NCBI RefSeq assembly: GCF_003473485.1
Contig: NC_053046.1
Coordinates: 19,496,001 to 19,560,000 of the forward strand
Length of the DNA stretch: 64,000 bases
Source: Medicago truncatula
Lineage: Eukaryota; Streptophyta; Magnoliopsida; Fabales; Fabaceae
Reading direction: 5' to 3'
Position numbers and translations under genes: made by a program. Under the pieces are notes generated by a model. The model was not told where the DNA came from. It made no database searches and saw only the letters and a program-made list of their open reading frames with translations. How positions within the stretch are numbered: the stretch's first letter is position 1; every line of letters starts with the position of its first letter. Shown in pieces: positions 2,334-39,047 of this stretch.

Positions 2334-2363
2334 ATAAAATAATATAATTGTTGAATGATAATC

Positions 2364-2372: not shown

Positions 2373-2418
2373 CAACCTTACAATGCCTTCGTGGTCACAA
2401 ACCACAAATATTGATCTC

Positions 2419-3738
2419 ATGGTTATTTTAACAATGAGATTTTATTCATCTTTTGTTCTTCTACTATTTTGCTTTTGTAGATTATCTCTCACTAAGACTC
2501 AAAACCATGGCTTTAATGTAGAACTCATCCATCCAATCTCCTCAAGATCACCATTTTACAATCCTAAAGAAACTCAAATCCAACGAATTTCAAGTATTTT
2601 GAACTATTCCATCAACCGTGTTCGTTATCTCAACCATGTGTTTTCTTTTTCCCCAAATAAAATTCAAGATGTGCCTTTATCATCATTTATGGGTGCTGGA
2701 TATGTAATGAGTTATTCAATTGGTACCCCTCCATTTCAACTTTACAGTCTTATTGATACAGGAAATGATAACATTTGGTTTCAATGTAAGCCGTGCAAAC
2801 CATGTTTAAACCAAACATCACCAATGTTTCACCCTTCAAAATCATCAACCTACAAAACCATTCCATGCACTTCTCCCATATGCAAAAATGCAGATGGGCA
2901 TTGCTCTTCCAAAGATTAAAAGATATGTGAATATAAATATACATATGGTGATGGGTATTCGCAAGGAGATCTTGGTGTCGACACTCTTACTTTGAACTCT
3001 AACAATGGCACTCCTATCTCATTCAAAAATATTGTGATTGGATGTGGGCATAGAAATCAGGGGCCATTAGAGGGGTATGTCTCAGGAAATATTGGCCTTG
3101 CACGCGGGCCTTTGTCTTTTATATCCCAATTGAATTCTTCAATTGGTGGAAAATTTTCTTATTGTCTAGTTCCATTATTTTCGAAGGAAAACGTTTCAAG
3201 CAAATTACATTTTGGAGATAAATCAACGGTTTCTGGACTTGGAACTGTTTCAACTCCCATAAAAGAGGAAAATGGTTACTTTGTAAGTTTGGAAGCATTT
3301 AGTGTGGGAGATCACATTATAAAACTGGAGAACTCTGATAACCGTGGAAATTCCATCATTGATTCAGGAACAACGATGACTATTTTACCAAAGGACGTTT
3401 ATTCTAGGTTAGAATCTGTAGTGTTGGATATGGTTAAGTTAAAGCGTGTTAAGGATCCCAGTCAACAGTTCAATCTTTGCTATCAAACGACATCAACAAC
3501 ATTACTGACGAAGGTTCTAATAATCACTGCACATTTTAGTGGGTCGGAGGTCCATTTGAATGCTCTAAACACCTTTTATCCAATTACTGACGAAGTTATC
3601 TGCTTTGCTTTTGTTTCTGGTGGAAATTTTTCTAGTCTTGCGATATTTGGTAATGTAGTGCAACAAAACTTTTTAGTTGGATTTGACCTAAATAAAAAGA
3701 CTATATCCTTTAAACCCACGGATTGTACCAAACATTGA
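2419..3738 (+). pseudogene. CDR1/nepenthesin-type aspartic protease, one in-frame stop
   Basis: Secreted A1-family pepsin-like endopeptidase; relatives such as CDR1 act in the apoplast in defence. One reading frame runs from 2419 to 3738 but is cut by a TAA at 2917-2919. The protein resumes in the same frame immediately after it (the conserved Y-GDG flap region follows). Both catalytic motifs remain: D-T-G about codon 125 (counting from 2383) and D-S-G-T-T about codon 327. The Cys-rich nepenthesin insert (KPCKPC...PC...IC) follows the first Asp, and a hydrophobic signal peptide follows the start. No intron is needed, as is usual in this subfamily. Apart from the stop the frame is clean, so the lesion looks recent, or it could be a sequencing error or allele-specific change. 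Called a pseudogene with that reservation. Confidence 0.85.
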
Positions 3739-7012: not shown

Positions 7013-7090
7013 CCAACATTCAAATCCATTTCATTGATTCACAATCACCAATATTGTATCACATCACACGCTCTTCACAAATAATCAAAT

Positions 7091-7747
7091 ATGGAACAAA
7101 CTCAACAAGAAATTGGGATCAAAGTCTACAATGCAACTCCTCCACCACAAGAGGCCATAGGCGGCGTCACACACCAGCCTTTCGATCCACCGGAACCTGG
7201 CAAGAAACGTCGCGCCATAATGGCAAAAGGTGTCCAAAAAACCCTCTCAAAAACATCCTTACTCGGAAACTTCCTTCCAACAGGAACACTCATAACATTC
7301 GAAATGGTCCTTCCTTCAATCTACCGAAATGGTCAATGCACTCATGTTCATACCATCATGATCCATTTCCTCTTAATCATGTGTGCACTCTCTTGTTTCT
7401 TCTTTCACTTTACCGACAGTTTTCACGGCGCGGATGGTAACGTTTACTATGGTTTTGCTACTCGGAACGGGTTGTCTGTTTTTAAACCGGGACTCACTGT
7501 TTTGGTTCCTAATGATGACAAGTACAAAGTTGGGTTTCAAGATTTCGTGCATGCGGTTATGTCGGTTATGGTGTTTGTGGCTATCGCTTTTTCGGATTAT
7601 AGGGTTACTAATTGTTTATTTCCTGGACATGAAAAAGAGATGGATCAAGTTATGGAGAGTTTTCCTTTGATGGTTGGAATAATTTGTAGCGGTTTGTTCC
7701 TTATTTTTCCTACTTCAAGGCATGGAATTGGATGCATGTCTTCCTAA
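7091..7747 (+). CDS. DMP8/9: DUF679 membrane protein, DMP8/DMP9-type
   Basis: A 218-residue, intronless DMP protein. Four hydrophobic segments fit the DUF679 fold: about 57-77, 88-108, 152-168 and 190-208. They follow a proline-rich, soluble N-terminus (1-40) with a basic GKKRR stretch. Diagnostic blocks include GVQKTLSKTSLLGNFLPTGT, FEMVLPSIYR, the FFFHFTDSF stretch after TM2, FVHAVMSVMVF and KEMDQVMESFPLMVGI. The DMP8/9 branch of Arabidopsis is sperm-cell specific; it helps gamete membranes fuse at double fertilisation, and its loss gives maternal haploids. Assignment to that branch rests on my recall of the Arabidopsis sequences, including the N-terminal G-I-K/R-V-Y motif. The reading frame is intact, and the start is supported by a TATA box and family N-terminus. 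Expression cannot be judged from sequence. Confidence 0.93.
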   Translation: MEQTQQEIGIKVYNATPPPQEAIGGVTHQPFDPPEPGKKRRAIMAKGVQKTLSKTSLLGNFLPTGTLITFEMVLPSIYRNGQCTHVHTIMIHFLLIMCALSCFFFHFTDSFHGADGNVYYGFATRNGLSVFKPGLTVLVPNDDKYKVGFQDFVHAVMSVMVFVAIAFSDYRVTNCLFPGHEKEMDQVMESFPLMVGIICSGLFLIFPTSRHGIGCMSS

Positions 7748-8999: not shown

Positions 9000-9449
9000 T
9001 GGATAAAAATTATTTATGCGATGGTAGACGGTTGGCTCAAAGAACTGTTTCGAGCTATGAAGCACGGATACGTACACCGACACCGGATACAACACGGACA
9101 CTGATACGCCGACACAGCTAATAATTTGAGAAAATCACATAATTTAGTGCAATTACAAGTGTCGGTGTCGTGTCAGTGTCGGACACGACATATGTCTAAC
9201 ACCGGGACACGCCTAATCCGAGGAGTGTACGTGTTTCATTGGAATCGAGTTGTGGACGTCTGGAAGAATCTCGACCAGGAAATATTTCTTGAAACCATGA
9301 CTGTGTTGAGAATCTTTTATTTCATCAAAAGAATTGGGTTCTGATTCTTGCGGCTGCGGCTGAGAGACTTGTGGTGGTGGTTGCAACGGTGGAAGAGGAG
9401 ACTTGGTTGATGGCTGCTTTAGTGTAGGAGATTTGTGCGGAGAATCCTT
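9000..9449 (-). pseudogene. Decayed copy of proline-rich gene B, split by a MITE
   Basis: Read on the minus strand, 9449 down to about 9243 follows the first 230 bp of gene B (15735 onward) closely. The promoter also matches (the shared GAGAGAGTGATCGATATA block, 9453-9475). The start codon is AAG instead of ATG (9449-9447), and one base is missing near 9305 (CAACACAG here, CAAGCACAG in B), shifting the frame. A 188 bp MITE-like insert (9055-9242) interrupts it; gene-B-like sequence resumes weakly to its left, ending near TCGAG. The left edge is uncertain. It was inactivated at several places. Confidence 0.75.
9055..9242. mobile_element. MITE with CACGGACAC-rich ends, inside pseudogene
   Basis: The left end (CTATGAAGCACGGATACG) and inverted right end (CGTGTTTCATTGG) are complementary. 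The interior is rich in GACACGG / CCGACAC words. Flanks TTTCGAG and AATCGAG look like a diverged target duplication in gene-B-type sequence. It is related to the elements at 55265 and 58378. Confidence 0.55.
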
Positions 9450-9719
9450 GAATCTTATATATCGATCACTCTCTCAATTATGTAATGTTTAGTGGTTTCT
9501 TGGAGAGAAAGTATGTGGAAAATATTTTATGTCATATTGATAGATATAGTTAGTTAGTATGCATTACTAGTACTGAATCTCTTGATCAATTTAAAACACC
9601 TTAATTATTTGGTTAATGTTTTTATGTTTCTAGTACTAATTGTTCTAGACTTGCTTTAATTCTTCTTTCAGTGAGTTTTGATGTTAACTAATAAAAGCCT
9701 TTCTGTTATATAACTCTTG

Positions 9720-12700
9720 AGTATTTTTAGTTTGTGTCCTGCACGCTTGTTCTTATATGCTTGTCAAGTTATTAATTTCTTGAAGTAGAGAGTTTGTTGC
9801 ACTTTGAGCTTAATGATGTTGAAATGTGTGTTAATTCTTACAAACTATGTATGAATTCAGCACTAATGATGTTGGAAATTGTTTTAAAATTATTTGATAG
9901 GATTTTTGTTTGAAGACAAGCAAAATATTAAGTTGGGGAGAGTTTATAAGTGTAAAATTTACTTAAAATCCAATTTATTATTAGGCATTAATTTGATAGC
10001 TTGTTTTGCAAGATATCTTATAAAATTCCCAATTTTCCTAGTAAATATTAGATAACTATGTTTTGAGTACTTTTGTTAAGGTTTACCAAGGGAAAAAAAT
10101 GTTTTTTTTTTTTTTTGTTTTGTTTTGTTTTGTTTTGTTACGAAGGTCTCCTATTATAGCTCTCGAAAATGAAACCAAACGTTTGAATTTTACTTGAAAA
10201 AGTACATATGGATTATACCAATTTCGGTATGAGCAGTGCTATTTAAAGGGAAAGAATTGTTCCCGAAAATTTCACGTAATTTTTTTGGACCAATCAAATC
10301 TTGGTATAGTCCAGAATTCACGCAGGTGGCGGGGTTAATTTTTCGAAATATTCAACAAACATAGTGGAACTTTTGCTCGCGATGCCACTCGTGAAATGGG
10401 TTTTCGCTGTGTTAAGCATTAGCCTATCTGTATATTTATTTGTTTGAACTACATTACTATTGCTCATTACAGAAGAAGCTACACTTTAATTCAAATAAGA
10501 ATTTTTTTAAGGGTTCTCTTGTCATATAATTGTTGGCGATGTCACCTCACTTTGAGGATTGCAAGTAATTTACACAATGAATGAGAATTAGCCATATGAA
10601 TAAATTTGCAAGTGATATCCACGAACTAATTTCTACTTCACTTAAAAATTTACTTATAAATTTACTTATGTGGCTAATTTTCATTACTTGTTGAATAAAT
10701 TGCCCACTATCTCAATGAAACCCCAACGAACCGCAAATTGGTTAACCAGTACCATTCCATGATACTTTTAAGCATTGGTTCACAATATTTTAGAGAGAAT
10801 TTGCAAAAAAATGGAGTATAAAAAAACCGCAAATATCATGACATGACTTTTTGAAACAGATCTATCGACGATTTTTTTAAGAGGCGAATTACGAAGCGTG
10901 GTGAGCCGCGTATCCGACCCAATACGATTTACTTTAGAAAAATCATATTTGTTTAGTGGTGATATCCATAAACCTATTTTCCTACATCTGAAACAGTTGG
11001 TTAACGACAGTAAAAAATGTGGTTAATGTAGTTGAGTTGATGATTAAAAAAGTGGTTAATGTAATTGAGTAAATAAACAATTCAATTAGGATAAAATTTT
11101 TGATAAATTCAACTACATGATTAACTACAACTACATAATTTTGAGTATGATTTAAATGAACCATTTACGCAAGTGAATTAACAAGGTATCACATACGTAG
11201 GGAAAATTAGTGTCCAATTAAACAATTTTTATAGTTATTATCTACATAACGAAAAGTTAATTAGAAGCATATGTCTCCATGAAACATCCAACAATTTCAC
11301 CCAAAAAGAAAAGGCAAAACTCAAAGCAAAATTAATAAACTAGAAGCATACAATTAATATGAAGAAACATACATATATCAATCTAGAATGGTGCATTTTA
11401 TTAAAATCAACATAACCCTTCTAATGAACAGATAATTGGAAGCATATGTCTCCATACCATGGTCATTAGAAGCATATATCACTTAACCCAAAAATAAGGT
11501 TTCAAGTATAACCCTAATTTGAACCAGAAATGCATTATTATTATTATAAAAGAAAACCTACAAAGTCACTCAAGAAATATTCTCCATATGCAAAACAATG
11601 AATAACGAGTTCCAGCTTCACACAAATATATTTGGGGACCTGAAACAAGAATCATAATATTTTTTAATTAAAATAGCATACTAATGAATGAAACACTGAA
11701 TAATGAGTTAATATTCTTTGTTACCAATTTGATCCCAATAACGTAAATTTCAATAACTCATGCATGCATGGAGATTAATTAAACTTTAACTATCACCTTA
11801 ATTTCATTTCAATAACATGAAAGTAAATTCTCTTCATTAAGATTCTAGAATTAATTAAACTTGATCAATATATAAATCAGAAAGCCAAAACAAAGTATCC
11901 CTTAATAAAAGAATTCATCAAGAATGTTCTGATGAGTCCAATGATGATGAAAACTACTAACCGGACTCGGAGGTGGTATTTGCATCTGTCATGGTGACGG
12001 AGTAACAGAGGGATTATTACTTGCTGATGATTCTAATGTATCCGGTGGAGATCCCGATGAGACGGGTGAAGGGTCTGATGACGCGACGGGTGAAGGGTCT
12101 GAGGAGTTCAATGAATTGTCTGATGAGACCGGTAAAGGGTCTGATGAGCTCGATGAAATGTATGCGGCGGTGATGCTGATGATTTGTCCTTGTGACTGTG
12201 AACTTCCTGGCGGTGGTTCTTGGATTGAAAGATGTCGCTTTGGTGATGATGGCTGAGGATCTTGGAGTGGATGTTTTCGCTTTAGTGGAGAGTTTTCAGG
12301 TGATGGTTGTGGCTGTGTTGAAGAGTATTGGGGTGATAGCAAAGGAGAGCCAGGTGGTTGTTGCAGCTGCGACGTGGCGGCTGGTGATGGTTGATGCTGC
12401 GACATGGTGGCTGGTGATGGTTGATGCTGCGACGTGGCGGCTGGTGATGGTTGATGCTGCGACGTAGGTAAGTGCGTCGGTGATTGTGGCGGTGGAGAGT
12501 TGTTTGGTGGCTGTGATTGTTGTTCAGGTGAAGTTTGTTGTGGCGGTGGAGAGTTGTTATGATCCATGGTGTGATTTCTCAAGAATTCAATGGTAACATG
12601 GATTTGATTATATATATATATATAGTGTGTGTGTGTGTGAGAGCTTCAATTAACTGACTAACGGTATTTTAGTTAGTTAGTTAGTTACATATATGTAACT

Positions 12701-13530
12701 GACTGAAATGATTCAGATAGTTAGTTAGTTGCATATATGTCACTGACTAATTGTTGTTAGTTGCACTTTGGGATGAAAACAACTGATATACACACATCTT
12801 TTAGAGAGGAACTTCATATATTAATTGAAATTGAATATCTCTTTAGAATAAAAAATAAGACATGAAATCAACACATTATCTTAAATCATAATGAACTTAA
12901 ATGAGTTTGATGCACATTATCTTTCTATTTAACCCTGTAAAGTTAATCACTCGAGTTATAGGACGCTTTGTGCCTAGACGGAAGGAAAGATATAATTTAC
13001 CTTAAAGTCGGCTGTTATTTTCAGATCGGCTCGGATCATGTCACTGTCATAGTTGTATTACAACGAGAATTATGAGCTTCTATGTCTAGAGACAACATCG
13101 CTATGATGTTTTAGAAAGTGCTTATAAAATTATAGTTAAATCAGCGATTAATAATTTCTTAGAATGATAATAAAGCCACAAAGCAGAAATTTATAGTTTC
13201 AACTTCTGCAACAGAATTACAATGAAAGACGATTTCAATTAGCTTCACAAAATATCATTTCAAATACATTGTTCATAAACCCAAATGATAGAAAAGTATA
13301 TAAGCAAATTTGACAGTAATCCATTATTCAGCTAGTTAGAGAACCGTTATTCAGTTATACAGCCGGTAAATAACTAACTATAAAAAAAAAACGTTAGGGA
13401 GTTAATAATATCAGAAGATTTTATAAATTTTCCTCAAAGAAACCATTAAGTTGTATCGGTGCTTTGTGATTGTGAGTCAGAAACCCTTAATTTGTATCAG
13501 TTCTGCAGTGATTGTGAGTCAGAAACCGCT
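9720..13530. repeat. Left arm of large inverted duplication
   Basis: This stretch is the reverse complement of two separate blocks to the right. About 9720-11500 pairs with 16300-17940 (3' flank of gene B), and about 11100-13530 pairs with 19290-21350 (gene C and both its flanks). Shared landmarks include the segment that reads, on the gene strand, CTTCTAATGACCATGGTATG, and the AGGTTTTCTTTTATAATAA block. Compared with the C block it has roughly 400 extra bases at about 12775-13180. Ends were judged by eye. Confidence 0.8.
11989..12567 (-). CDS. Proline-rich orphan protein A
   Basis: A 192-residue protein of unknown function, very rich in Pro, Ser and Gln, with no signal peptide, membrane segment or known domain. 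The start is the ATG at 12567 (MDHNNSPPPQQ). A centre of three to four near-perfect ten-residue repeats of type SQHQPSPAAT/M (30 bp units) spans about residues 35-70. A basic patch (LKRKHPLQ, SPKRH) follows, and the end is Ser/Asp-rich with DPSPV motifs, closing SNNPSVTPSP. It is nearly identical to gene C in inverted orientation but one ten-residue repeat shorter. Upstream, the TATA region is a TA/TG microsatellite (about 12610-12640). Downstream, a putative 3'-UTR intron is conserved with B and C. The GC-skewed repeats create long antisense ORFs that I ignore. Protein existence is inferred from conservation among copies. Confidence 0.65.
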   Translation of the reverse strand: MDHNNSPPPQQTSPEQQSQPPNNSPPPQSPTHLPTSQHQPSPAATSQHQPSPATMSQHQPSPAATSQLQQPPGSPLLSPQYSSTQPQPSPENSPLKRKHPLQDPQPSSPKRHLSIQEPPPGSSQSQGQIISITAAYISSSSSDPLPVSSDNSLNSSDPSPVASSDPSPVSSGSPPDTLESSASNNPSVTPSP

Positions 13531-15593
13531 ATGGATCCAAACGGAAAATAGGTGGCTAAAGAACAACGATCACCACGGGATGACTCTCCACAACCACCGC
13601 AAGACTCTCTTCCGCAATCAAATGTTGTCACGGTATCCTCTACTTAATTGGAGTACTATGGATAGAATTCGAAGGAACTTAAACTAATGTGTTTCATCAT
13701 TAATTTTAGTACTCATGCAAATGTATGAAAAAGTTGTCGATTTTTGTTTTAATATTCTGCACAATTTTACTTTAATATATCAATTTTAGGTGACCAATTG
13801 TGATTTCAAATTTCAGGCTAAGAATTTGTGGCGAGTACAGTGTATCCTACTCAGGACTATTCAAATCTAGTTGAGTTCTCTATCTAATGGCGCGTAAATA
13901 TGTATGCAAAATGAGTTCTCTATCGTGCGGTCTCTATGTCTATCGAGCATTCTTTAGTATTTTTGTGCTTATATTAATTTCCTTTTACCTATTCATCGAC
14001 CTCACATGTAATTTTCTATGAATTTTAAATAAATTACTATGATGACTCCAATATTAAAGACCCGATCGAGAGACCTGAAAGATCTGAAGTGATGGTAAAG
14101 GTGAATACTGAATTGTCATATAGAAAACTTTGACGATGATCGACATGTTTTGTCGGGGAATTGAAAGAATCGGAGGCTGCTTAGAATTAGGAGTCTGACC
14201 TTGTTCTGATTGTTTGCAATGTTGTTTCTGGTTTGTCTTAAAATGTTAGCTGGGGACAGAAAAAGAATTTCACTATTTTATTAATTTTCTTTTGAATATT
14301 TTTCTTTGGTTATAGTCATTTTAGAGTAGAAATCTAATCTTCTAGTTAAGTAGTGTGATTTGTATTGATTTCTCTCTAACGAGGCAATTCTTGAGGGTTT
14401 ATAAGTATGGAGCTAGATTTATGCTACATCTTTTGAGAATTCACCTAGTACCGCTCTAGTTAAGCACATTTACAATAAGTCATTCCGTAGATTAATCACA
14501 ATTTCATAATCAACATATTTTTTGTGTTTATCAAGCACTTTACCATATTTGGTATTGAATATTGCATTAACCCTTCAAAGAAAATATATGGGATTCAAAT
14601 AATCATAATCGCTATCTAACCTCTTAAACAACTCTTTTTACTTTTTTGCATACTACCACTCGCATCCAGCACACAATCCAAAAGTTAAAACCCTTAAACC
14701 CCTTTAAATGCTTTCTTAGTTTATATTAGGTATAGAGTATTGCTTAGTTGACAACAATCCCTATAGAGACGATAATTTACTACTTTATTATTTGTTGCGG
14801 CTTGGTGCACTTGCTAAATTTGTTATCAACAAGCTAGGGTTTTTTATTCTAGTTCATCAATTCTGACGAAAATCGAAGGAGTCTATGCCGAAAAAGGAAT
14901 ATTGATGAAGATTGTCGAATGATCTCATAGGATTGAAGATTTGAGAGATTAAGGTGTCAAGTTCATGGATCTCGGAACTGGATAAAGTTAAAGGTGATCT
15001 TGCCAACAAGTGGTTTAGGTTCTTGATGATCTTTTGGTTTAAAGACTCACACAATTCGTTAATTACTTGTAATCACACCTTGTAGCACTTCATGAAAACA
15101 TTCAATCATAGTAGAATGTTCTAGATTTTTCTACGAAAAATGGATGTACTCCATAACGAAGAAGATTGAGGAAACCACTAAAAAATCGATATATTCTCTT
15201 CACTTGTTATTTAGTTTTAGCATAAATTCGGTATATTCGTTCTTTATATTTATACATTTTTTTTGTGATTATGATTTATGTTCCCTTTCGTTGTGATTTA
15301 ATTCTTGTGCATGAATCTTTTAATGCCTTTTTGTCTATACATCGTTAATTGATTAAAGAAAAATGATTTGTGTACACGTACTCAACATCTTGAGAGAGAA
15401 AAAAATAGAGTGAGTATGTGATGCATATGATAGATCGACGATACCGTATAAAGAGAGAGATAAAAACATAATGAAATATTGAATTAATGTAAAAAAAAAA
15501 TATTGAGCTAATATTATTAAAAAAAAAAGTGTCTACTAAAATTAAATATTAGTCAGAAACAACGTTGACTAACTATAATACCGTTATAATCGG

Positions 15594-15596
<3 letters not shown>
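13531..15596. other. Spacer between inverted genes A and B, with LTR-like remnant
   Basis: No gene supported. Bases 14760-14834 resemble 461-527 (LTR-end-like, GGTGCACTTGC followed by TTATCAACA). A 65-codon minus ORF at 14857-15054 has no recognisable feature. The stretch is the centre of the inverted duplication and is unique within the window otherwise. Confidence 0.35.

Positions 15597-15629
<33 letters not shown>
15597..15629. repeat. (TA)n microsatellite
   Basis: An uninterrupted run of TA dinucleotides about 100 bp upstream of gene B, in the position of its promoter. Confidence 0.9.
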
Positions 15630-15631
<2 letters not shown>

Positions 15632-15734
15632 CACCAAAATATTCTCCCTATACTACTTTCTCAACATAAAACCACTAGATATTGCATACTTGAGAGAGTG
15701 ATCGATATACCATTCATTTCCATTCCTCAGCCGC

Positions 15735-16289
15735 ATGGATCCTCCGCACAAATCTCCTCCACCAATGCAGCCATCAGCCAACTCTCCTGCACTGCCGTTG
15801 CAACCACCGCAACAAGCCCCTCAGCCGCAGCCGCAAGAATCAGAACCCAAGTCATTTGATGAAATAGAAGATTCTCAAGCACAGTCATGGTTTCAAGATA
15901 TATTTCCTGGTAAAGATTTTCCACCATGTCTTCAACCGCAGCAAGAAAATTATCAAGATTCTTCCAAACTTCCACAACTCGAAGAAGGTCGTAAGGGAAA
16001 ACCTCGACCATGGCATGAGTCACCAGAACGATTAATATTTCTTCAATTATATCCTAATTTTGCTTATGTTCTGGCGCCACTGGATTCACCACCACATTCA
16101 CCGTCGAAGCAAGAAAACATTATTTCACCACCATGTCAACAACCACCACCGCAGCTGGAAAATGTTCTTGCACCACCATCTCTTCCTCATCATTCTACAT
16201 CAGAACCTTCACCCGTCTCATCAGGCTCTCCACCGGATTTATTAGAATCAACCGCAACAAATAATCCTTCTATTCCTCCGTCACCATAA
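15735..16289 (+). CDS. Proline-rich orphan protein B
   Basis: A 184-residue Pro/Gln/Ser-rich protein of unknown function, with no signal peptide or membrane helix. It begins MDPPHKSPPPMQP at a clear ATG. The middle is less repetitive than A and C and contains a more ordinary segment (about 60-110; FDEIEDSQAQSWFQDIFPG and RLIFLQLYPNF) that could fold. The end (EPSPVSSGSPP...LLES..NNPS) is clearly homologous to A and C. The 3' flank to about 17940 is shared with gene A in inverted orientation. The 9 kb pseudogene is its paralogue. The promoter carries GAGAGAGTGATCGATATA at about 15693 and a TA microsatellite upstream. Confidence 0.6.
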   Translation: MDPPHKSPPPMQPSANSPALPLQPPQQAPQPQPQESEPKSFDEIEDSQAQSWFQDIFPGKDFPPCLQPQQENYQDSSKLPQLEEGRKGKPRPWHESPERLIFLQLYPNFAYVLAPLDSPPHSPSKQENIISPPCQQPPPQLENVLAPPSLPHHSTSEPSPVSSGSPPDLLESTATNNPSIPPSP

Positions 16290-17940
16290 CCGGTTAGTTG
16301 TTTTCATCATCATTGGACTCATCAGAACATTCTTCATGAATTCTTTAATTAAGGGATACTTAATTCTGGCTTTCTGATTTATATATTGATCAAGTTTAAT
16401 TAATTTCATAATCTTAATGAAGAGAATTTAATTTCATGTTATTAAGGTGATAGTTAAAGTTTAATTAATCTCCATGCATGAGTTCTTGAAATTTACATTA
16501 TTGGGATCAAATTGGTTACAAAGAATATTAACTCATGCAGTGTTTCATTAATTAGTATATATACTATTTTAATTAAAGTACTCATATGCAATAGTTTGAT
16601 TCTTGTTTCAGGTGCCCAAATATATTTATGTGAAGCTGGAACTCTTTTGCAATTTGGACTTTGGAGTATTACTTAGCAAGAGAATTAATCTTGAGTAACT
16701 TTGTAGGTTTTCTTTTATAATAATAATAATAATGCTTTTTTGGTTCAAATTAGGGTGATACTTGAAACCTTATTTTTGTCTACTCCTTTTTTGGGTTAAG
16801 TGATATATGCTTCTAATGACCATGGTATGGAGACATATGCTTCCAATTATCTGTTCATTAGAAGGGCTATGTTGATTTTAATAAAATGCACCATTCTAGA
16901 TTTATATATGCTTCTTCATATTAATTGTATGCTTCTAGTTCATAGATTTATCCTAATTGAATTGTTTATTTACTCAATTACATTAACCACTTTCTTAATC
17001 ATCAACTCAACTACATTAACCGCATTTTTTACTGTCGTTAACCAACTGTTTCAGTTGTAGGAAAATAGGTTTATGGATATCACCACTAAACATATATGAT
17101 TTTTCTAAAGTAAATCGTATTGGCTCGGATACGCAGCTCACCACGCTTTGTAATTCGCCTCTTAAAAAAATCGTCGATAGATCTGTTTCAAAAAGTCATG
17201 TCATGATATTTGCGGTTTTTTAATACTCCATTTTTTGCGAATTCTCTCTAAAATATTGTGAACCAATGCTTAAAAGTATCATGGAATGGTACTGGTTAAC
17301 CAATTTGCGGTTCGTTAGGGTTTCATTGAGATAGTGGGCAATTTATCCAACAAGTAATGAAAATAAGCCACATACCCTAAATTTGTAAGTGAAGTAAAAA
17401 TTAGTTCGTTGATATCACTTGCAAATTGGTTCATATCGCTAATTCTCATTCATTATTGTGTAAATTACTTGCAATTCCTCAAGGGTAACATGACATCACC
17501 AACAATTATATGACAAGTGAACCCTTCTAAAAAAAATTCCTATTTGAATTAAAGTGTAGTTTCAAACAAATCGAAATACAGAAAATGGTATACTCCATGT
17601 ACTTTTTCAAGTAAAATTTAAACGTTTTCTTTTCGTTTTCGAGAGCTGTAATGGGAGAATTGGGAATTTTATAAGATTTCTTGCAAAACAAGCTATCAAA
17701 TGCCCTAATAATGAATTGGATTTTAAGTAAATTTTACACTTATCAACTCTTTAAACAAAATTTTATCAAATAATTTTAAAACAATTTCAAACATCAATAG
17801 TGCATAATTAATTTATTCAAAGTTTGTAAGAATTAACACACGTTTCAACATCATTAAGCTCAATATGCAACAAACTCTCTACTTCAAGAAATCAATAACT
17901 TGACAAGCATCGCGTGCAGGACACAAAATAAACCAACAAA
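16290..17940. repeat. Right arm, part 1: 3' flank of gene B
   Basis: Reverse complement of about 9720-11500 in the left arm; its first 600 bp also match the 3' flank of gene C in direct orientation. It contains the putative 3'-UTR intron acceptor (TTGTTTCAG near 16603-16611). No separate gene; an 86-codon ORF at 16800 is not conserved in the other copies. Confidence 0.75.
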
Positions 17941-17960
17941 ATTTGAGTACAGAATAATAC

Positions 17961-18866
17961 TGTTGTGAATTCGGACAAAATCACACCAATGAATAACAAA
18001 GATGTGTGGAGCAAAGGAAGTGGTAATCAATAGATAAAGCGTCTCCAAGCAACAACAACAAAAAAAGACCTAAATCTAAGTGTAGAGCAACACCACAAGC
18101 ATAATCAAAGCAATAAAGATAAGCAATGAAAGAAAGGAACAAACACTCAAAGATTGTTGACCCAGTTCGGTCCAATATGAACTAATCTTAGGGAGAGAGC
18201 AGCCCTCCAATCCACTATGATGAAAGTGTTACAAAAGAGTTACAAGAAATTACCTTATAAGCTTACACAAGAACAAGACCTAATTTCTACCCTTTTTGTG
18301 TCACCCACAATCTCAATGAATCCTAAGAGAAAACACAAAAGGAAGATTTTTGATCCTTCCAATGGTGAAATCTCACTGCCCAAGATGTTTACAATGTTTC
18401 CCAACCCAAGAGATCCTCACTACAAAGACACTCAACCCTAAAATTACCTCCTTTGGTGGTGATGTCAATTTAACCATCAGCCACCATGCTGCTCTCTCCA
18501 AAAGGGAATTACTCTTCATCAAACTTGATCAAGTCCAAGCAATGCTTGAACCTTGATCTAGGAAATGACTTGGTAAACACATCCGCCGGATTCTCTTTCA
18601 ATGCCACTTTTTCCACGCACCACAATCTCTTTTGATTCAATCATGTCTCTAACAAAGTGCAAGTGAATGTCAATGTGCTTAGTCCCCTCATGATACACTT
18701 GATGATTAGCCAATTAAGTGAATGACACTTTGACTATCACAATGTATCTTCACACATTCTTGAGTAATTCCTAACTCACCAATCATACCTTTCAACCATA
18801 TGGCCTCTTTCACCCCTTCAACAAGGGAAATGTACGCCCCTTGAGTTGTTGATAATGCCACCACGG
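17961..18866 (-). mobile_element. Ty1-copia 3' end: RNase H fragment plus LTR
   Basis: On the minus strand, 18866 to about 18560 encodes part of a copia RNase H with frame breaks: VALSTTQGAYISL, KEAIWLKGMIGELG, IHCDSQS, and then TKHIDIHLHFVRD in another frame. The rest to 17961 is an LTR-like tail ending in the classical GAATTCACAACA. The 5' part of the retroelement is missing. It separates the 3' flank of gene B from the 5' side of gene C. Confidence 0.75.
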
Positions 18867-19289
18867 ATTGAAAAAAAAAAAAAAAAGCTGAGAACCTCAA
18901 ATCTGAAGAGAAGAGAAGCTAACCTTGAAGAGCTTGAGAAATGGTACAAATTTTTGGAAGAAATTGATTGAAGAGTTTGAGAAATTGATTGTGAAATTGA
19001 TTTTAGGGTTATGGAAGAGTAAAGATGGTTATGAGAGGAAGCATTACACACGAGGGAAATTTTGATGTGGATACGCGGGATATAAAATTTTCACAAAATA
19101 TTAGCCGTCGGAAATCTGTCTCAAAATTTCACAGTTTTGGGACGGATGAGTTTTTTTAAGGAAATTCGTGCGAAATTTGTCGAAAAAAAACTTTGTTGGA
19201 ACATGTCATAAAAGTTTCACACGATTTTGGGACGGATTTGAGACGAAAATTTCGCTCATTTAAAACCGAAAACAGTTTTTTTAGTAGTG
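18867..19289. mobile_element. CACTA right-end fragment
   Basis: The segment ends ...TTTTTTTAGTAGTG, the inverse of a CACTAC terminus. It carries repeated subterminal motifs (GGGACGGAT, AAATTTCGC, GAAATTCGTGCG). It has no matching left terminus, so it is a fragment fused to the copia relic through an A-run at about 18870. The homology between genes A and C stops exactly at its end. Confidence 0.6.
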
Positions 19290-19749
19290 TTCTTACTCAC
19301 AATCACTGCAGAACTGATACAAATTAAGGGTTTCTGACTCACAATCACAAAGCACCGATACAACTTAATGGTTTATTTGAGGAAAATTTATAAAATATTC
19401 TGATATTACTAACTCACTAACGGTTTTATTGATAGTTAATTAGTTTACCGGTTGTATAACTGAATAACGATTCACTAACAATAACAAGCTGAATAATTGG
19501 ATTACTGTCAAATTTGCTTATATACTTTTCTTTCATTTGGGATAACGAACATTGTATTTGATAATATTTTGTGAAGCTAATTCAAGTCATCTTTCATTGT
19601 AATTCTGCAGCAGAAATTGATGCTATAAATTACTCTATTGTATATGCCCAAAATGTAACTAACAAAAATACAGTTAGTAAGTGACATATATATGCAACTA
19701 ACTAACTAACTAAAATACCGTTAGTCAGTTTATTGAAGCTCTGACACAC

Positions 19750-19756
19750 TATATAA
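19750..19756 (+). promoter_or_regulatory. TATA box of gene C
   Basis: TATATAA lies 40 bp before the ATG of C, giving a very short predicted leader. In gene A the same position is expanded to a TA/TG microsatellite. Confidence 0.5.
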
Positions 19757-19796
19757 TCAAATCCAAGATACCATTGAATTCTTGAGAAATCACACC

Positions 19797-20405
19797 ATGG
19801 ATCATAACAACTCTCCACCGCCACAACAAACTTCATCTGAACAACAATCACTGCCACCAAACAACTCTCCACTGCCACAATCACCGACGCACTTACCTAC
19901 GTCTCAGCATCAACCATCACCAGCCACCATGTCGCAGCATCAACCATCACCAGCCGCCACGTCGCAGCATCAACCATCACCAGCCACCATGTCGCAGCAT
20001 CAACCATCACCAGCCGCCACGTCGCAGCTGCAACAACCACCTGGCTCTCCTTTGCTATCACCCCAATACTCTTCAACACAGCCACAACCATCACCTGAAA
20101 ACTCTCCACTAAAGCGAAAACATCCACTCCAAGATCCTCAGCCATCATCACCAAAGCGACATCTTTCAATCCAAGAACCACCGCCAGGAAGTTCACAGTC
20201 ACAAGGACAAATCATCAGCATCACCGCCGCATACATTTCATCGAGCTCATCAGACCCTTTACCGGTCTCATCAGACAATTCATTGAACTCCTCAGACCCT
20301 TCACCCGTCGCGTCATCAGACCCTTCACCCGTCTCATCGGGATCTCCACCGGATACATTAGAATCATCAGCAAGTAATAATCCCTCTGTTACTCCGTCAC
20401 CATGA
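19797..20405 (+). CDS. Proline-rich orphan protein C
   Basis: A 202-residue near-twin of protein A: the same MDHNNSPPPQQ start, basic patch and SNNPSVTPSP end. It has one extra ten-residue SQHQPSPA(A/T)(T/M) unit, that is 30 bp, which is the main length difference. No signal peptide, TM or known domain; low complexity predicts disorder. The ORF extends upstream in frame to a TTG at 19782, but the first ATG is 19797, matching gene A. The next exon-like conserved block lies beyond a putative 3'-UTR intron. Function unknown; preservation of frame between A and C suggests either recent duplication or selection. Confidence 0.65.
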   Translation: MDHNNSPPPQQTSSEQQSLPPNNSPLPQSPTHLPTSQHQPSPATMSQHQPSPAATSQHQPSPATMSQHQPSPAATSQLQQPPGSPLLSPQYSSTQPQPSPENSPLKRKHPLQDPQPSSPKRHLSIQEPPPGSSQSQGQIISITAAYISSSSSDPLPVSSDNSLNSSDPSPVASSDPSPVSSGSPPDTLESSASNNPSVTPSP

Positions 20406-20436
20406 CAGATGCAAATACCACCTCCGAGTCCGGTTA

Positions 20437-20754
20437 GTAGTTTTCATCATCATTGGACTCATCAGAACATTCTTGATGAATTCTTTTATTAAGGGATACT
20501 TTGTTTTGGCTTTCTGATTTATATATTGATCAAGTTTAATTAATTCTAGAATCTTAATGAAGAGAATTTACTTTCATGTTATTGAAATGAAATTAAGGTG
20601 ATAGTTAAAGTTTAATTAATCTCCATGCATGCATGAGTTATTGAAATTTACGTTATTGGGATCAAATTGGTAACAAAGAATATTAACTCATTATTCAGTG
20701 TTTCATTCATTAGTATGCTATTTTAATTAAAAAATATTATGATTCTTGTTTCAG
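20437..20754 (+). other. Putative 3'-UTR intron of gene C, conserved in A and B
   Basis: The donor CCG|GTTAGT lies 31 bp after the stop, and the acceptor TTGTTTCAG ends at 20754. Both sites recur at the same place in the 3' flanks of A and B. Inference only; no transcript data. Confidence 0.4.
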
Positions 20755-21701
20755 GTCCCCAAATATATTTGTGTGAAGCTGGAACTCGTTATTCATTGTT
20801 TTGCATATGGAGAATATTTCTTGAGTGACTTTGTAGGTTTTCTTTTATAATAATAATAATGCATTTCTGGTTCAAATTAGGGTTATACTTGAAACCTTAT
20901 TTTTGGGTTAAGTGATATATGCTTCTAATGACCATGGTATGGAGACATATGCTTCCAATTATCTGTTCATTAGAAGGGTTATGTTGATTTTAATAAAATG
21001 CACCATTCTAGATTGATATATGTATGTTTCTTCATATTAATTGTATGCTTCTAGTTTATTAATTTTGCTTTGAGTTTTGGCTGAAATTAAAGGATACTTG
21101 AAACTATTTTTCTTTTCTTATTGGGTGAAATTGTTTGGATTTTTCTTTTCTAATTAACTTTTCATTAGAAGGGCTATGTTGATAAGAATCATAAAAATTG
21201 TTTCATGCACACCAATTTTCCCTAAGAATCATAAAAATTGTTTGGAAATGGTGAATTCACTTGGGTAAATGGTTCATTTAAATCATGCTCAAAATTATGT
21301 GATTGTAGTTAATCATGTAGTTGAATTTATCACAATATTTATCCTAATTGAAATGGCTGTATCGCTTTCGAAATTTTTGAGAGCTTCAGCTTGATTTCTT
21401 TCGCTTATTTAATAAAGGACTTCATATTTAAAAAAGAAAAAAGGTTCATCCTTTTTTGGTAGAAACAGATCCCTTGTACATAATCAGCTAAAAAGAAAAA
21501 AAGAAAAGAAAAAAAAAAGGTTACTACAGGCTTCTCCAAAAGAAAAAGAAAGCGATATTTCTATCATATCCACTAAAAATGTAACTAATATGTAATATTT
21601 TATTTTGTTGTCAAAAAGAATAATGTAAATTTGAGCAAAGGGAAAGGAATTAAGGGATTGCTTGATCATCTTCAATCACTCCTCATTCTTGAAGTTGCAT
21701 A

Positions 21702-22385
21702 TCAAGTTTTTATGTCTTTGATTACATCATGGATGATTAAATACGCCTGAAACAACAATAATTAAACTTCACCATCATCCAATTCTTTTTATTTATATAT
21801 ATAATAAATAAATATATTAGAAATAAAGAATGAACAAAAGAAAATGAACTCACGTACCACGTAACTCATATATATAACACAAGAAGTTACGGCTAAGGCT
21901 ATACAGATGTAATCTTTTATATTTGATGCCTTCGATGAATATGATGCATCAGATGGTGATGTTGATCGTGATCTAGATGGTGTTATCCACGTTGAAGAGC
22001 GATATCGTGGTGGGATGAAACTTTGTTCCATATTAGAATGGGATGATCGTGGTGTTTCCGACGAATATGGTGTAATAGAATAATATGGTGGTCGTGCTGG
22101 CTGCGATGAAGAAGATCGTTGAAAAGAATAGTGTGGTGGTTGCGACAAAAATGATGGTCGACTAAAATGATATGGTGGTCGTGGTGGCTGCTGCGACGAA
22201 TATGATGGTGCAATAAATTGATATGGTGGTTGTGGTCGCTGCGTTGAAAATGGTGCATTGGATTGGGATGGTAGCTGCGGTGTAGATAGTGTTCGATGGA
22301 ATAAATATTGTGGTGGTGGTCGTGGCTGTGATAAAGATGCGGGTGGTGGTGGATCCGATGAAGATGTTGGTTGTTTGTGAGCCAT
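21702..22385 (-). CDS. Proline/serine-rich protein D with C-terminal membrane segment
   Basis: Proposed exons: 22385-21858 and 21746-21702 (minus), 190 residues. The first ATG is MAHKQPTSSS; an upstream in-frame GTG is not used. The body (about 5-145) is rich in Pro, Ser, Tyr and Gln, with PPYSF/PPYHF-like units. A hydrophobic segment of about 20 residues (CIALAVTSCVIYMSYV) precedes the splice site. The donor GTG|GTACGTGAG and acceptor TTGTTGTTTCAG correspond exactly to those in gene E. Splicing replaces a hydrophobic read-through tail with AYLIIHDVIKDIKT. This suggests a type II or tail-anchored protein with the proline-rich part on one face. The bases around the ATG (CCATAGTGACTTT on the plus strand) are shared with E. 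No family recognised. Confidence 0.6.
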
Positions 22386-22898
22386 AGTGACTTTCAATGT
22401 GATATGATTTAAAATAGCATATGTCACAATACACTTAGAAAAATAGAATCGGTTGAGGAATGGGTACAAATGGCAATTGATCCACACTATTAGGAAGTGA
22501 GACGAAGCAAGTGAGAGAGCGCTGCTAAGTTAAATATTCCTACGTAACTATATGGGGAATATTTGCTATAGGATGGTCGATGCACTAAAACGAAAAGAAA
22601 AAAAGATCACAGAAAAAAAAAATCAAAATGGTGAAGACATATTAAGGTTAAAATAAATAAAATTTTCAACAATTATTCCCACTTCAAATAATAAATAAAA
22701 ACAAAAACTTGTACTCAATTATTCAAACATGATAAATACTAAAAGAAGAAAAAAAACATAAACACTTAAGAGTGTTTTGCTAGGAGGATATGGTAAGATC
22801 CCCACTTGTTTCTTGAGGAATATCGTTGTGGCTATTTGAAGATGAGTTTTCAGCTGAGGGTGTTGACATCATAAACTTGTTGTTGTTTTTATTTTTAT

Positions 22899-22930
<32 letters not shown>

Positions 22931-23049
22931 ATAATTTTAAATCTTTAAAATTATTTTAAAGAATAGTATAAGGACAAAAATTGTAAGAAAAAAATGCAAG
23001 AACAATTTTTATTATGTTGTTTCATTATGTAATTATTTACTTCTAAAAT
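22386..23049. other. Gene D upstream region with (TA)n microsatellite
   Basis: No gene. A run of TA repeats lies at about 22899-22925. The rest is AT-rich. Confidence 0.5.
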
Positions 23050-24070
23050 ATATTTTTTTTCTCCCTAAACCAGGAGAAAGAACAAATATCAAAGGGAAGC
23101 AACGACATCCTAACTAGGTTGGTACCTTGATGAACCCCCATCATCTACCGCCAATCTCAAAATATTATTAAAAAAAAGGAGGGAAAGATACAAGAGGGGG
23201 GACTAAACCAAAACCCTCAAAAAAACAGAAGAAAAAAAGAAATAGAAAAACAGCAACCGCCTACGGAAACCTATACCGAGGTAGAACACAACGGTCCGAA
23301 TAAAACTCCGCCTGTAAATCAGGAGGTAAAACTAACAACCACACATCCCCATCAACCGAGTGACCCATAGAAGCCAACCTATCAGCACAACAATTACCTT
23401 TACGGAAAATATAAGAGGAAATAACCTGAATTCCAAGAGAACATCCATTATACCCAACGACTGCGAAGCAAAACCGGCACCAACGACATATTATATTCTT
23501 GAAAACTAAAATAGCGCTAGTAGAGTCACTCTCTAACCATATGTTCGTCCACCATTATGGGCAGCATACTCCATATCCCGAATAAAATCATGCACTTCAG
23601 CCGTAAAAATAGAGCAACTACCCAAATTACAGGTAAAGGCATGAAGGAAAGTACCTAAATGATCCCGAAACAATCCGCCACAAGCACCATGATTACCAAT
23701 GACAAAGCCGTCGGTGTTAACCTTTAACAAAGGAACCGAGGGAGCCTTCCAAAACACCAAGACCACCTCTCTAATTTGACGATTATGATGAGAAACAAAG
23801 AACAAGTCATATAGCGGAGCATCTGAGTCAATACACTTACCAGTGGACAAGAAACCACTCATACCAATCAAGGAGTGAACACGCACCTGAACAACATGTA
23901 TGGTGATGCTATTAGAAGAAAACTGAATTCCTATCCCACCATAGCGAATGCAGCATGTGAACAATGGCATCCAAATAAATATCTGACATTTGAGAGGAAC
24001 AATGGGGATGGATGCAAAGAAGCAACGCCTGAATGAAGGAAAGGTTGATTACAAGATTTAACTTTAAGGG
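23050..24070 (-). mobile_element. 5'-truncated LINE (L1) with RNase H domain
   Basis: Minus-strand translation shows a plant LINE-type RNase H: NTDGFVIGNHGACGGLFRDH, then TAEVHDFIRDMEYA, then W-LESDSTSAILVFKN, and finally SSYIFRKGNCCADRLASMGH, with at least one frame disturbance near 23530. After the stop near 23265, a GAGGGTTTTGGTTTAGTCCC 3' region follows, with a T-run on the plus strand at about 23051-23060 (poly-A side). The 3' region matches that of the LINE at 60940. Upstream reverse transcriptase is absent. Confidence 0.8.
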
Positions 24071-26225
24071 GTCTACGAATTTTTACACTTACAAAAAAAA
24101 ATGTATAATTCAACTATTTGCTTTAATGTGAGTCTTTTCTAAAATATTCAGAATTTGATGGAATGTTAAGCAGTGAAATTTTTAAATTAATATATAAAAC
24201 ATAATGAAATTTATAAACAATGTAAAAAAAGTAAAGCGGTATAAGTTTAATTTCTTTTTGACTGGAATATAATTTTTCCCAAAATTTAAAATTTAGAAGA
24301 ACAATGAGCCAAGTACAGGACAGTGTTCTCCTTTAACTAATATGCTTTAAAAAATGTTTTTATTTTTATTTTTTTGAAGGAAAAAATGTTTTTATTTTTT
24401 TTATTTTTTATTTTTTGAAATAAAAAAATGTTTTTATTTTAAAATGCATTAAACTAAATAAATAACTATTTCTTATTTGGATATATGGACAAAGAAAACG
24501 CAAACTTATTTTTTACTGTACAAAATAATAAAAAAATTAGTTTCGATCTTCTCATTTCATATCTCTTTACCCTAATTTCATAAAACTAACTATCTTTCGT
24601 TGGATTTATTATATACATCTATTAAATGAGAATATTATTCAAGTATATTATAATACTTTTCCAAATTGTCTTAAAAGTTATGATTTTGTTAACTGTGATG
24701 TGTGTAGGTGCGTGTTTGAATATCCCACGAGTGTTGAAAAATATGTTTCTGTCAAAATATTAAAAAATGTATCTTCTAATTTGTCGTAGTCGATATAATT
24801 TGTTTAATATGTAGTGTAGGTCATAATAAAAATATGGGTTTGGATTCTATGTAAAGATTTAAAAATTTCCTTTTAAGAGCGATAAAGATTATCTACTAAA
24901 AATGCTATTAATTATTCAAAAATGTCTGTCTCTTTCCAAATAAAAGTTCGATTACCGTAGATTAATTATTAAAACTAAAATTTTACAAGTTATCTCATAA
25001 TATAAAAATAAAGGAAAAAACATGAACACAATAATGATCTATGATGTTTTGTAATATTAACTTTTAATATATTATATGTTTTATTTTGTATATTTTTTTA
25101 CAAATGTTATATTTTGCATATTATCTCGTAGTTTTATAATATAAGTACAAACATAACTTTTTGTCATGAATTTGATCAATCAAAATCCGACGCAATCTAA
25201 AACAAAATTTTATTGCATTTTTTGAATTTTTGTAAGGGACTCATCTAAAATGAATCGTGGTTGTTTTCTTGTTGAATTATATGATCTTTTGATTTCAAAA
25301 TGATCCAAACTACACCATAAAAATGACATGTGTTGAATCCAATTTAAGCCTATAGGTTTATTATTATGAAAGTTCAATCAATGTATTGCCGTTAATTTGT
25401 GGAAACGAGTGTATATAAATATAAACCTACATTGAGGAAATGAAATTATAACAGTTACAATAATATACGGAAAAAGATAGGTAGACATCCTTTTTTGAAA
25501 TACCTCTTATGTACACCCCATGTGTCAGGGGTAGTTTAGTCATTTCACATTACATTATCACTATTTTCACCTCTTCTTTCAATGTTTTTGCCACATGTCA
25601 CAAATGTGCGTGGATGTAAAAAGGTGTATGCCACCTAAGGTGGTTCATGTATAACAGCTCATAATATACTATAGAGTTAGTGCTTTTTATAGAGATCATT
25701 GTTACAATGAAAATTATTTATATTACTTTTTAATGTGTATAGATGTGTTATTTGACAATATGCACTTGATGAATTATTTAACAAAGTATAATTGATGAAT
25801 CATTTGATTATATGTAATTTGTGAATCTGAGTCAGACTCTAAGTAATGTATAAACAATTAGAAAAGTTCATAAAACGGAAACACAAAATGAAACTTGACA
25901 CAAGACACTTTAAAGAACCATTCTAACTAAAATTATAAATATACCTTCTAGTTCTAAATATAATTAGATCAAAATTTACCTACGTATATAGTCAGCTAAT
26001 TTAAGAACAAAATATATTATTTGAATTACTGATCAACCATTTATTTATTCATGAACAAATACAATACAAAGAAAAAAGACTGTCACAGTCTTCAACCCTA
26101 AGTAGCTAAAAAAGAAAATAAAAGATGAAGAAATGAACATTTTGCATGATCATATCTCCTGAAAATGTAACTAATATGTAAATTTGAATATCTTTATTCA
26201 CTCCTTAATCTTCTTCATTCATTCC
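24071..26225. other. AT-rich intergenic DNA between D and E
   Basis: No gene seen. Around 25480-25660 there are TACACC / GGTGTA and ACATCC / GGATGT inverted words, possibly an old MITE with unclear ends. Otherwise only A/T-rich tracts. Confidence 0.4.
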
Positions 26226-27282
26226 TCAATCTTCTTTGAATTGTCTGATAATGTGAAAAATCTGAAACAACAATAATATAATTAATTAACAACTGATAGA
26301 ACTTCACCGAATATTACAAAGAAAGAAAGAAAGAAAGAAAGAAAAATAAAGTAAGAACAAAGAACATGAACTCCCTTACCACGTAAGAAAGATAGAAAAC
26401 ACAAGAGGTTGCGGCAAAGACTATGAAGATTTCAATTGGATCAATGATCTGCATATTATCTTGTTCATTAGATTGCGATGCTCTTCGTAATGGTGATGAT
26501 GGTGGTGATACTGTTGGTGATGGTGTTGATGGTCGTCCTGATGGGTATCTTCTAGGGATCACTGAATGATATATTGGTGGTGGGTTCACTGAACGAGGCC
26601 ATGGAGGACGAATGTGACTCGATGAAAAATTAGAATGGTATGGTAATGGTGATGATGGTGGTGATACTGTTGGTGATGGTGTTGATGGTGGTGGTGGTGG
26701 CTGTGACGGAAAAGAGTAACAAGGTGGTCGTAGTGGCCAATACGGTACCATATTATAATACAGTGTTCGAGGTGGCTGTGATGAAGAAGATGGTACCAGC
26801 GACAGATTTGTTGGTAGAATAGAATGATATGGTGGTCGTGGTGGCTGCGGTGAAGATGGTGTATTGGATTGTGATGGTAGCTCCGTTAAAGATTGCGTTC
26901 TTCTTCGCAGGAATGAAAACGGCCTTCGTGGCAATGAAGATTGCTGTGGCTGCAGTGAAGATGGTGGTTTCTCTGATGAAGATAGTGGGTTCTTTGATGA
27001 AGATGGTGGTGCATTAGAATCGGATAGTTTTGGTGGCGGTGGTGGAGGAGGTGGTGGATTCTTGGATGAAGATGGCGGTGCATTAGAATCGGATAGTTTT
27101 GGTGGCGGTGGTGGAGGAGGTGGTGGATTCTTGGATGAAGATGGTGGTGCATTAGAATCGGATAGTTTTGGTGGTGGTGGTGGTGGAGGAGGTGGTGGGT
27201 TCTTTGATGAAGATGGTGGTGCATCAGAATTGGGTGGTTTTGGTGGTGGTGGAGGGGGAGGAGGGGGAGGAACGGGAGCCAT
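26226..27282 (-). CDS. Proline-rich protein E with C-terminal membrane segment
   Basis: Proposed exons: 27282-26380 and 26261-26226 (minus), 312 residues. It opens with MAPVPPPPPPPPPP and about four tandem copies (residues 14-100) of a unit combining a Pro8-9 run with KLSDSNAPPSSSKN. A Pro/Ser/Tyr region with TPSPTVSPPSS repeats follows. The membrane segment IFIVFAATSCVFYLSYV aligns with that of D. The donor TACGTG|GTAAGG and acceptor TTGTTTCAG give the tail IFHIIRQFKED. Without splicing the ORF would run into a Phe/Leu-rich low-complexity tail encoded by GAAA repeats (26319-26343), which argues for the spliced form. It lacks a signal peptide and an FH2 domain, so it is not an extensin or formin. 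Antisense Gly-rich ORFs are shadows of the Pro codons. Confidence 0.65.
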
Positions 27283-27659
27283 AGTGACTTTGAATGAAAG
27301 GTTATATTTTTATGCTATGCTTCAAATAGAAGATGAATGTTATGCTGAAAGTATATTGAATGGTTAGTGACTTTAGCTATATATAATAATTTGGTTCAGT
27401 GTTTAGAAGCTTCAGAAATAACAATAACCAATTTGCATAACGGTATTTCTAACTAATCAGTTAACAAAAGCTAACGATCTGAATAACCGTCTCATAGAAA
27501 TACCGTTATAATAACTGTCTCACACTAGTGTTCATTAAGTTTTTTGTTTTTATTTTCTTAAAGGATTAAGATTCTTAATTTGGTTATGTAGTTTTATATT
27601 ATTTATTTATTGATGAATAAAGAGTTTAGCTAGTTATATATTGTACTGAATTATGCAAA

Positions 27660-28040
27660 GGATGGTATCAACAAGGAGTATTTGACATCTCCATGTTTCC
27701 TTGGGCACAAAGTGTTTGCTTGGGGAAAATACTTGGGTGACATAGAGTTGGGTAACATTGGTGACATTGGTCAATCACAATACCACAATGCTTGTGTTTC
27801 TCTCTCTTTCACAAGCATTTGACATTATGATTGGTTAATGTCACCCAACTCTATGTCACCCAAGTGTTACCCTTTGCTTGGAGTCTTTCACATTTCCAGG
27901 TTTGCTCGGATACATAGTGCCGGCTTGGAGTGTTTGACATCTCAATGCCCGGGAACAAAGTTCTGGATAAGAGTCTTTCACATGTCTATGTTTTCTCGAG
28001 AATGAAGTGTCGGGTTGGAGTGTCGTGTTAGTTTTTGCTC
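27660..28040. repeat. Degenerate ~75 bp tandem repeat
   Basis: About four units resemble GGAGTNTTTGACATCTCNATG ... GAACAAAGTGT..G-TTGG, broken by the MITE at 27724. No coding meaning seen. Confidence 0.5.
27724..27872. mobile_element. Mutator-like MITE
   Basis: TIRs of about 40 bp share ACTTGGGTGACATAGAGTTG. The exact 9 bp duplication TTTGCTTGG lies at 27715-27723 and 27873-27881. The element is 149 bp and nearly a full hairpin. Confidence 0.85.
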
Positions 28041-39038: not shown

Positions 39039-39047
39039 ACCGGCCAA

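Follow-up and report, generated by a model that had tools for sequence, protein, structure and literature searches.

It was found that a 64-kb stretch of Medicago truncatula chromosome 5 (C5:19496001-19560000; hereafter the window) holds five long proline-rich open reading frames (ORFs), named A to E, within its positions 11,989-27,282. I give about an even chance that A-E are a real plant gene family of two subtypes, confined to one locus and evolving rapidly. Their products would most likely be real, fast-evolving, disordered, non-secreted proteins of a scaffold-like kind. The ORFs and two pseudogenes of the same span are as follows.

11989-12567, minus strand: gene A, 192 amino acids (aa), Pro/Ser/Gln-rich, 22% proline, no signal-like N-terminus
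15735-16289, plus strand: gene B, 184 aa, with its own distinct N-terminal part
19797-20405, plus strand: gene C, 202 aa, a near-twin of A in inverted orientation
21789-22385, minus strand: open frame of gene D, 198 aa
26314-27282, minus strand: open frame of gene E, 322 aa
9261-9548, minus strand: psi-B, a pseudogene of B that includes the 5′ flank of B; it has lost the start codon, carries a 1-bp frameshift, and is truncated beside a dispersed repeat
about 13531-13640, plus strand: psi-F, a second pseudogene, head-to-head with A; stop at codon 7

A preliminary description of the window had named five open proline-rich genes and one pseudogene, with no other host gene between them and no recognizable domain. 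All five genes are present where it placed them. Its single pseudogene becomes two, since the B-type copy is joined by psi-F, and the span thus contains five open frames and two pseudogenes. One ORF lying between the genes, at 23533-23970, matches RVT_3 below threshold (E 0.032) and appears to be the remnant of a retroelement rather than a host gene. The Pfam profiles gave no match to the A-E frames at E <= 1. A search of solved structures with the B and D frames matched nothing, and an Rfam search of the whole window returned nothing for the cluster genes.

Distribution and Duplication of the Genes

Is the family present elsewhere in the genome? The genome searched comprises 429.9 Mb in 42 contigs. 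Because the searches score only the best candidates, the absence of further copies elsewhere is not absolute. Protein C matched C and A (two matches, E <= 0.001), protein B matched itself and its pseudogene (two matches up to E 1), and protein E matched E and D (two matches up to E 0.1). Protein D matched at four places up to E 1: the two that pass 0.001 are D and E, another is a further stretch of E, and the last, on C6 (E 0.2), contains two stops. With DNA queries, gene C found C, A, and B, and gene D found itself, three stretches of E, and, for the DNA immediately upstream of D, short matches on C1 and C3. At the thresholds used, the 430-Mb genome yielded no intact relative of A-E outside the cluster, and the family appears to be almost confined to one spot. 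In these searches it stayed within one genomic neighborhood, and the psi-F unit has one relative about 200 kb off. The upstream block of A recurs about 200 kb rightward at C5:19717177-19718300, and an open Pro/Ser/Gln-rich relative of psi-F with 62 aa lies at C5:19717090-19717278 on the minus strand, about 157 kb past the right end of the window. This 62-codon ORF has no Pfam match.

Self-comparison of the window agreed with the preliminary description that A and C are near twins in opposite orientation (95.7% identity over 11315-12694 versus 21079-19688) and that B shares its C-terminus and 3′ flank with them (86.7% over the shared end at 16198-16287; 84.9% over the flank at 16290-16940). The coding DNA that B has in common with A and C is limited to the last 30 codons or so. 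The nucleotide match between D and E is short (22193-22276 versus 26799-26882, 83.3%). The locus is interpreted as a set of units duplicated separately. The earlier view of a family grown by inverted duplication stands as to a local, inverted, orphan, and two-subtype family but is incomplete, because the units were duplicated separately and the A/C identity is mostly attributable to gene conversion. Weak similarities between the coding DNA of the two subtypes (A-D and C-D, 64% over 119 bp, E about 0.001 and 0.0006; B-E, 68% over 56-59 bp, E 0.002-0.006) were dismissed as low-complexity matches.

Predicted Gene Models and Proteins

D and E have a phase-0 splice donor after the same codons (GTACGT in D, GTAAGG in E) and a common acceptor, TTGTTTCAG. 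The predicted introns are 111 and 118 bases in length, and the exons predicted from the sequence are as follows.

21858-22385, minus strand: gene D, predicted exon 1, ending at the phase-0 donor GTACGT
21702-21746, minus strand: gene D, predicted exon 2 with the stop codon
26380-27282, minus strand: gene E, predicted exon 1, ending at the phase-0 donor GTAAGG; about four copies of a 69-nt repeat
26226-26261, minus strand: gene E, predicted exon 2 with the stop codon

The spliced D protein would have 190 residues and the C-terminus ..TSCVIYMSYV-AYLIIHDVIKDIKT, and the spliced E protein 312 residues and the C-terminus ..TSCVFYLSYV-IFHIIRQFKED. In these predicted proteins, a C-terminal hydropathy peak (1.96 at residues 163-181 of D; 2.23 at residues 285-303 of E) is followed by nine residues in each case, and the peaks in A, B, and C reach only 0.85-1.04. 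Thus, the second subtype with a membrane segment, as claimed earlier, holds for D and E, but the residues past the segment in both open frames are predicted to be intron read-through. One C-terminal hydrophobic helix, a short tail, and no signal peptide, the layout of a tail-anchored protein, were found in both predicted spliced proteins, and D and E are probably tail-anchored with a C-terminal membrane helix and a 9-residue tail. Tail-anchored membrane proteins are a general class with one C-terminal hydrophobic helix. D and E as spliced here share the helix and have the 9-residue tail, but they match no named plant tail-anchored family. No CYSTM or LEA_2 (LEA_2/NHL) domain was matched by Pfam in a scan of the D and E open frames, which do not include the 14 and 11 codons of the predicted second exons.

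In A, B, and C, the stop codon precedes a likely intron in the 3′ untranslated region (UTR) of 322, 319, and 322 bases, respectively, which also ends in TTGTTTCAG. A and C have a basic stretch, KRKHPLQDPQPSSPKRH (KRKH..SPKRH), which resembles a nuclear signal and is a putative one. Gene A carries a 30-nt in-frame tandem repeat, of which C has one unit more, and the 69-nt repeat of E encodes runs of 9-10 prolines. Within predicted exons, every one of the 12 tandem-repeat rows has a period that is a multiple of three (12 to 141 nt); three more rows (4, 12, and 22 nt) sit in the predicted intron of E. The proteins A-E look mostly disordered.

A Shared Upstream Element

A 9-letter motif, ATACCGTTA, was picked by eye. 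It occurs five times in the 64 kb versus 0.31 expected, always upstream of A, B, C, or E, with the start codon 74 to 226 bases away.

12659-12667, minus strand: ATACCGTTA upstream of A
15578-15586, plus strand: ATACCGTTA upstream of B
19715-19723, plus strand: ATACCGTTA upstream of C
27438-27446, minus strand: first ATACCGTTA upstream of E
27500-27508, plus strand: second ATACCGTTA upstream of E, in the opposite orientation

As a control for the choice by eye, the longest shared k-mer with at least 3 G/C was determined for 300-bp upstream regions and for triples drawn at random from elsewhere in the window. The regions of B, C, and E share a 10-mer, AATACCGTTA. None of the 3000 random triples reached 10 letters, and three reached 9. 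The 10-mer is carried upstream by A, B, C, and E, not by D. Because the upstream regions are homologous between A and C and weakly homologous between B and C, only E counts as a clearly separate case. The 430-Mb genome contains 444 copies of the 10-mer; its reversed control is commoner (1224). TAACGG is taken here as a putative MYB site, hence the term MYB-like. It is reported to have been claimed earlier as an AtMYB2 site, with other sites binding better (PMC11995187).

Are the Frames Maintained?

An alternative explanation is that A-E are relics or relaxed low-complexity ORFs, which formerly coded and are now drifting, and which stay open partly because of repeat expansion and few stop-prone codons. 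I regard this as possible but on the unlikely side. Frame length was assessed with 500 dinucleotide shuffles of each gene with 100 bp on either side. The observed length was reached by none of the 500 shuffles for B, D, and E. The introns of D and E differ at 36 of 109 aligned bases, or about 0.2 substitutions per site per lineage, and yet both frames are open and the splice site is kept, which argues against relics. Neutral drift of the first exons was simulated in 2000 runs, without and with indels, using substitution and indel parameters set by the author. At 0.2 substitutions per site, the exon stayed open in 3 and 3 runs for D and in 1 and 1 for E (without and with indels, respectively). 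At 0.3, the counts were 0 and 1 for D and 0 and 0 for E. Thus, at most 3 of 2000 runs at 0.2 and at most 1 at 0.3 kept an open first exon, a second point against the relic explanation.

Several results count against a maintained family, and some of them directly favor relics. The lengths of A and C were attained by 6 and 3 of the 500 shuffles, so that these two frames alone are moderately surprising only. At a drift of 0.1 per site, D stayed open in 69 and 27 of the 2000 runs and E in 36 and 3; the frame argument therefore hinges on the assumed divergence. Two of the seven copies within the span are broken. Between D and E, dN is near dS (0.52 and 0.65 wherever the two can be aligned; 0.59 and 0.58 for the C-terminal part alone; the alignment is uncertain in both cases), and the comparison gives no sign of residue-level constraint. 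The A-versus-C dN/dS check proposed in the preliminary description was run; it gave three non-synonymous changes (codons 14, 19, and 26) and no synonymous one, all outside the identical tract described below, and is uninformative because conversion has erased the differences. D lacks the shared upstream element: among the four sets of upstream regions that contain D, the longest common string is 6 or 7 letters in two, and the other two have no common string of at least 6. As for a common ancestry of the two subtypes, no match between A-C and D-E was found by filtered blastp at E up to 10. Taken together, D and E may have kept the reading frame, the intron, and the anchor, with the residues largely free.

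Gene Conversion between A and C

A tract without any difference is nested in the inverted A/C repeat.

11315-12463, minus strand: conversion tract on the A side, 1,149 bp identical to 19931-21079
19931-21079, plus strand: conversion tract on the C side, identical to 11315-12463

A and C mismatch at 39 of 345 positions in the upstream block (13178-13524), at 8 of 213 in 12464-12694 (with 48 gap columns), at none of the 1149 from 12463 to 11315, and at 8 of 102 in a distal piece (11081-11182). The contrast with the contiguous 5′ DNA gives P 3e-7, and that with the three flanking blocks (55/660) P 2e-25. The distal piece (21251-21352 on the C side) overlaps a dispersed repeat and may not descend from the A/C duplication; therefore the test was repeated without it, which gave P 4e-24 (47/558). 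In 20,000 permutations, the longest mismatch-free run was at most 385. On the 3′ side of the tract, 11183-11314 can still be aligned to 21080-21250, with frequent differences and indels (local score 55, compared to a maximum of 27 in 1000 shuffles). This diverged homology means that homologous DNA extends beyond both ends of the tract. The identity is not due to constraint because B differs from A/C at 45 of 605 positions in the matching 3′ DNA.

The 1,149-bp identity is thus interpreted as gene conversion. A very recent inverted duplication without conversion would account for the 95.7% identity across 1.4 kb, but I find it very unlikely: it does not explain a tract without differences beside 8/213 in the adjoining 5′ DNA and 39/345 upstream, nor the diverged homology past the 3′ end, and the divergence of B in the corresponding 3′ DNA removes constraint as a cause. 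An identical tract within diverged flanks indicates that A and C exchanged sequence recently and is not evidence of a recent origin. The 3′ flanks of A and B also form a mosaic, the mismatch ranging from about 1% to about 23% per 100-column piece (ragged end pieces excluded).

Comparison with Proline-Rich Cell-Wall Proteins and Mobile Elements

The proline content of A-E (17-31%), their internal repeats, and the legume genome are reminiscent of cell-wall proline-rich proteins of the PRP, extensin, HyPRP, or nodulin PRP class. This assignment is highly improbable, given that a hydrophobic N-terminus is lacking in all five, that each protein has 0-2 cysteines, and that no Pfam profile matched. 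The best 19-residue window starting in the first 30 residues scored -0.42 to -1.12 in A-E, as judged by hydropathy only and not by a dedicated signal-peptide predictor. D and E resemble HyPRPs in that a proline-rich, repetitive N-terminal part gives way to a C-terminal part of another kind, but A-E differ from them in lacking the eight-cysteine domain and a signal-like N-terminus (PMC2216038).

The 3′ flank of A was also compared with the genome. There were 45 matches: 6 in the cluster, 2 on C8, 3 at about 10221-10436, and 34 dispersed. The 34 dispersed short pieces map to about 10550-10711 and 10979-11182 and represent repeat DNA in the distal 3′ flank of A. The C8 pieces are 72 and 66 bp in length (L007:1380-1572) and lack the coding part. 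It is barely credible that the repeated unit is itself a transposable element or a gene captured by one: the sub-threshold RNase H remnant in the cluster, the dispersed repeats beside psi-B and E, and the 34 of 45 dispersed matches would suit one, but the coding parts occur only at the cluster at the thresholds used, and besides the dispersed pieces the flank matches outside the cluster amount to the two on C8 and the three at about 10221-10436. The repeat pieces at 10550-10711 and 10979-11182 are perhaps the ends of a non-autonomous element common with B's flank.

A Possible Mode of Action and Evolution

On the frames, duplications, confinement, conversion tract, and 10-mer described above, a model of splicing, expression, topology, partners, and function may be built. 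In the simplest view, the family is young and local. The products of A, B, and C would be soluble, disordered, and rich in Pro/Ser/Gln, and the 3′ UTR of each gene would contain an intron. In D and E, a cytosolic proline-rich arm would be held on a membrane via one C-terminal helix, which the second exon completes. The arms may serve as short-motif scaffolds, those of D and E at the membrane and those of A-C free, and the runs of about ten prolines in E could bind profilin or SH3/WW-type partners, although these partners are guessed. A, B, C, and E may be under the common MYB-like upstream element. At the locus itself, copies would arise by local duplication, lengthen by in-frame repeat expansion, be homogenized by gene conversion where they are inverted, and in part decay into pseudogenes. 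In its full form, the model would be a species- or genus-specific two-part scaffold system, with soluble A-C and membrane-anchored D/E under one MYB-type element, near-neutral sequence change with the frame, intron, and anchor kept, and inverted copies matched by conversion; I think it unlikely that all of this holds together.

A locus-confined orphan gene cluster is of a kind known in principle. The LEED..PEED family is reported to be confined to the Medicago lineage, has 12 of its 13 genes in one 93-kb window, and arose mainly by local tandem duplication; its members are small acidic peptides that are putatively secreted and whose transcripts are found in nodules only (PMC4199706). A-E likewise form a small family at one locus that grew by local duplication, but they are proline-rich and show no secretion signal. 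The homogenization of inverted copies over a limited tract recalls conversion in chromosome palindromes (PMC3403216); here, however, the setting is a plant gene cluster whose arms are diverged outside the 1.1-kb tract. No literature on the cluster genes was found by key words or by the presumed locus tags of neighboring genes. If expressed, the cluster would offer a compact case of orphan genes arising, diversifying, and being lost at a single site, where conversion, the growth of repeats, the gain or loss of a membrane anchor, and pseudogenes occur together. More generally, near-identical inverted copies should be checked for conversion before dN/dS analysis or dating.

Other Features of the Window

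To the left of the cluster lies a gene that, from its position, may be MtDMP9.

7085-7747, plus strand: gene for a DUF679 (DMP-type) membrane protein (E 6e-64)

The MYB-like 10-mer and this neighbor are weak hints at meiotic or reproductive expression of the cluster. MtDMP9 is Medtr5g044580, a haploid-induction gene (PMC12361163).

The window also contains the following.

2362-3738, plus strand: TAXi-type aspartyl protease with one in-frame stop between two long frames, either a pseudogene or a short intron
27724-27877: short MITE-like inverted-repeat element, with a 90% copy at C5:19581189-19581344
32370-33519, plus strand: two B3 DNA-binding domains in neighboring frames, probably a single gene
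34594-37852, minus strand: leucine-rich repeat (LRR) receptor-like kinase (35102-37852), of which 34594-35022 reads like the end of the kinase domain in a second exon
38472-39152, minus strand: retroelement RNase H (RVT_3) frame, similar to the sub-threshold remnant at 23533-23970 in the cluster
46612-47130 and 59509-60391: diverged repeat arrays, detected by self-comparison
49801-50178 and 52293-52742, plus strand: two ureide permease frames

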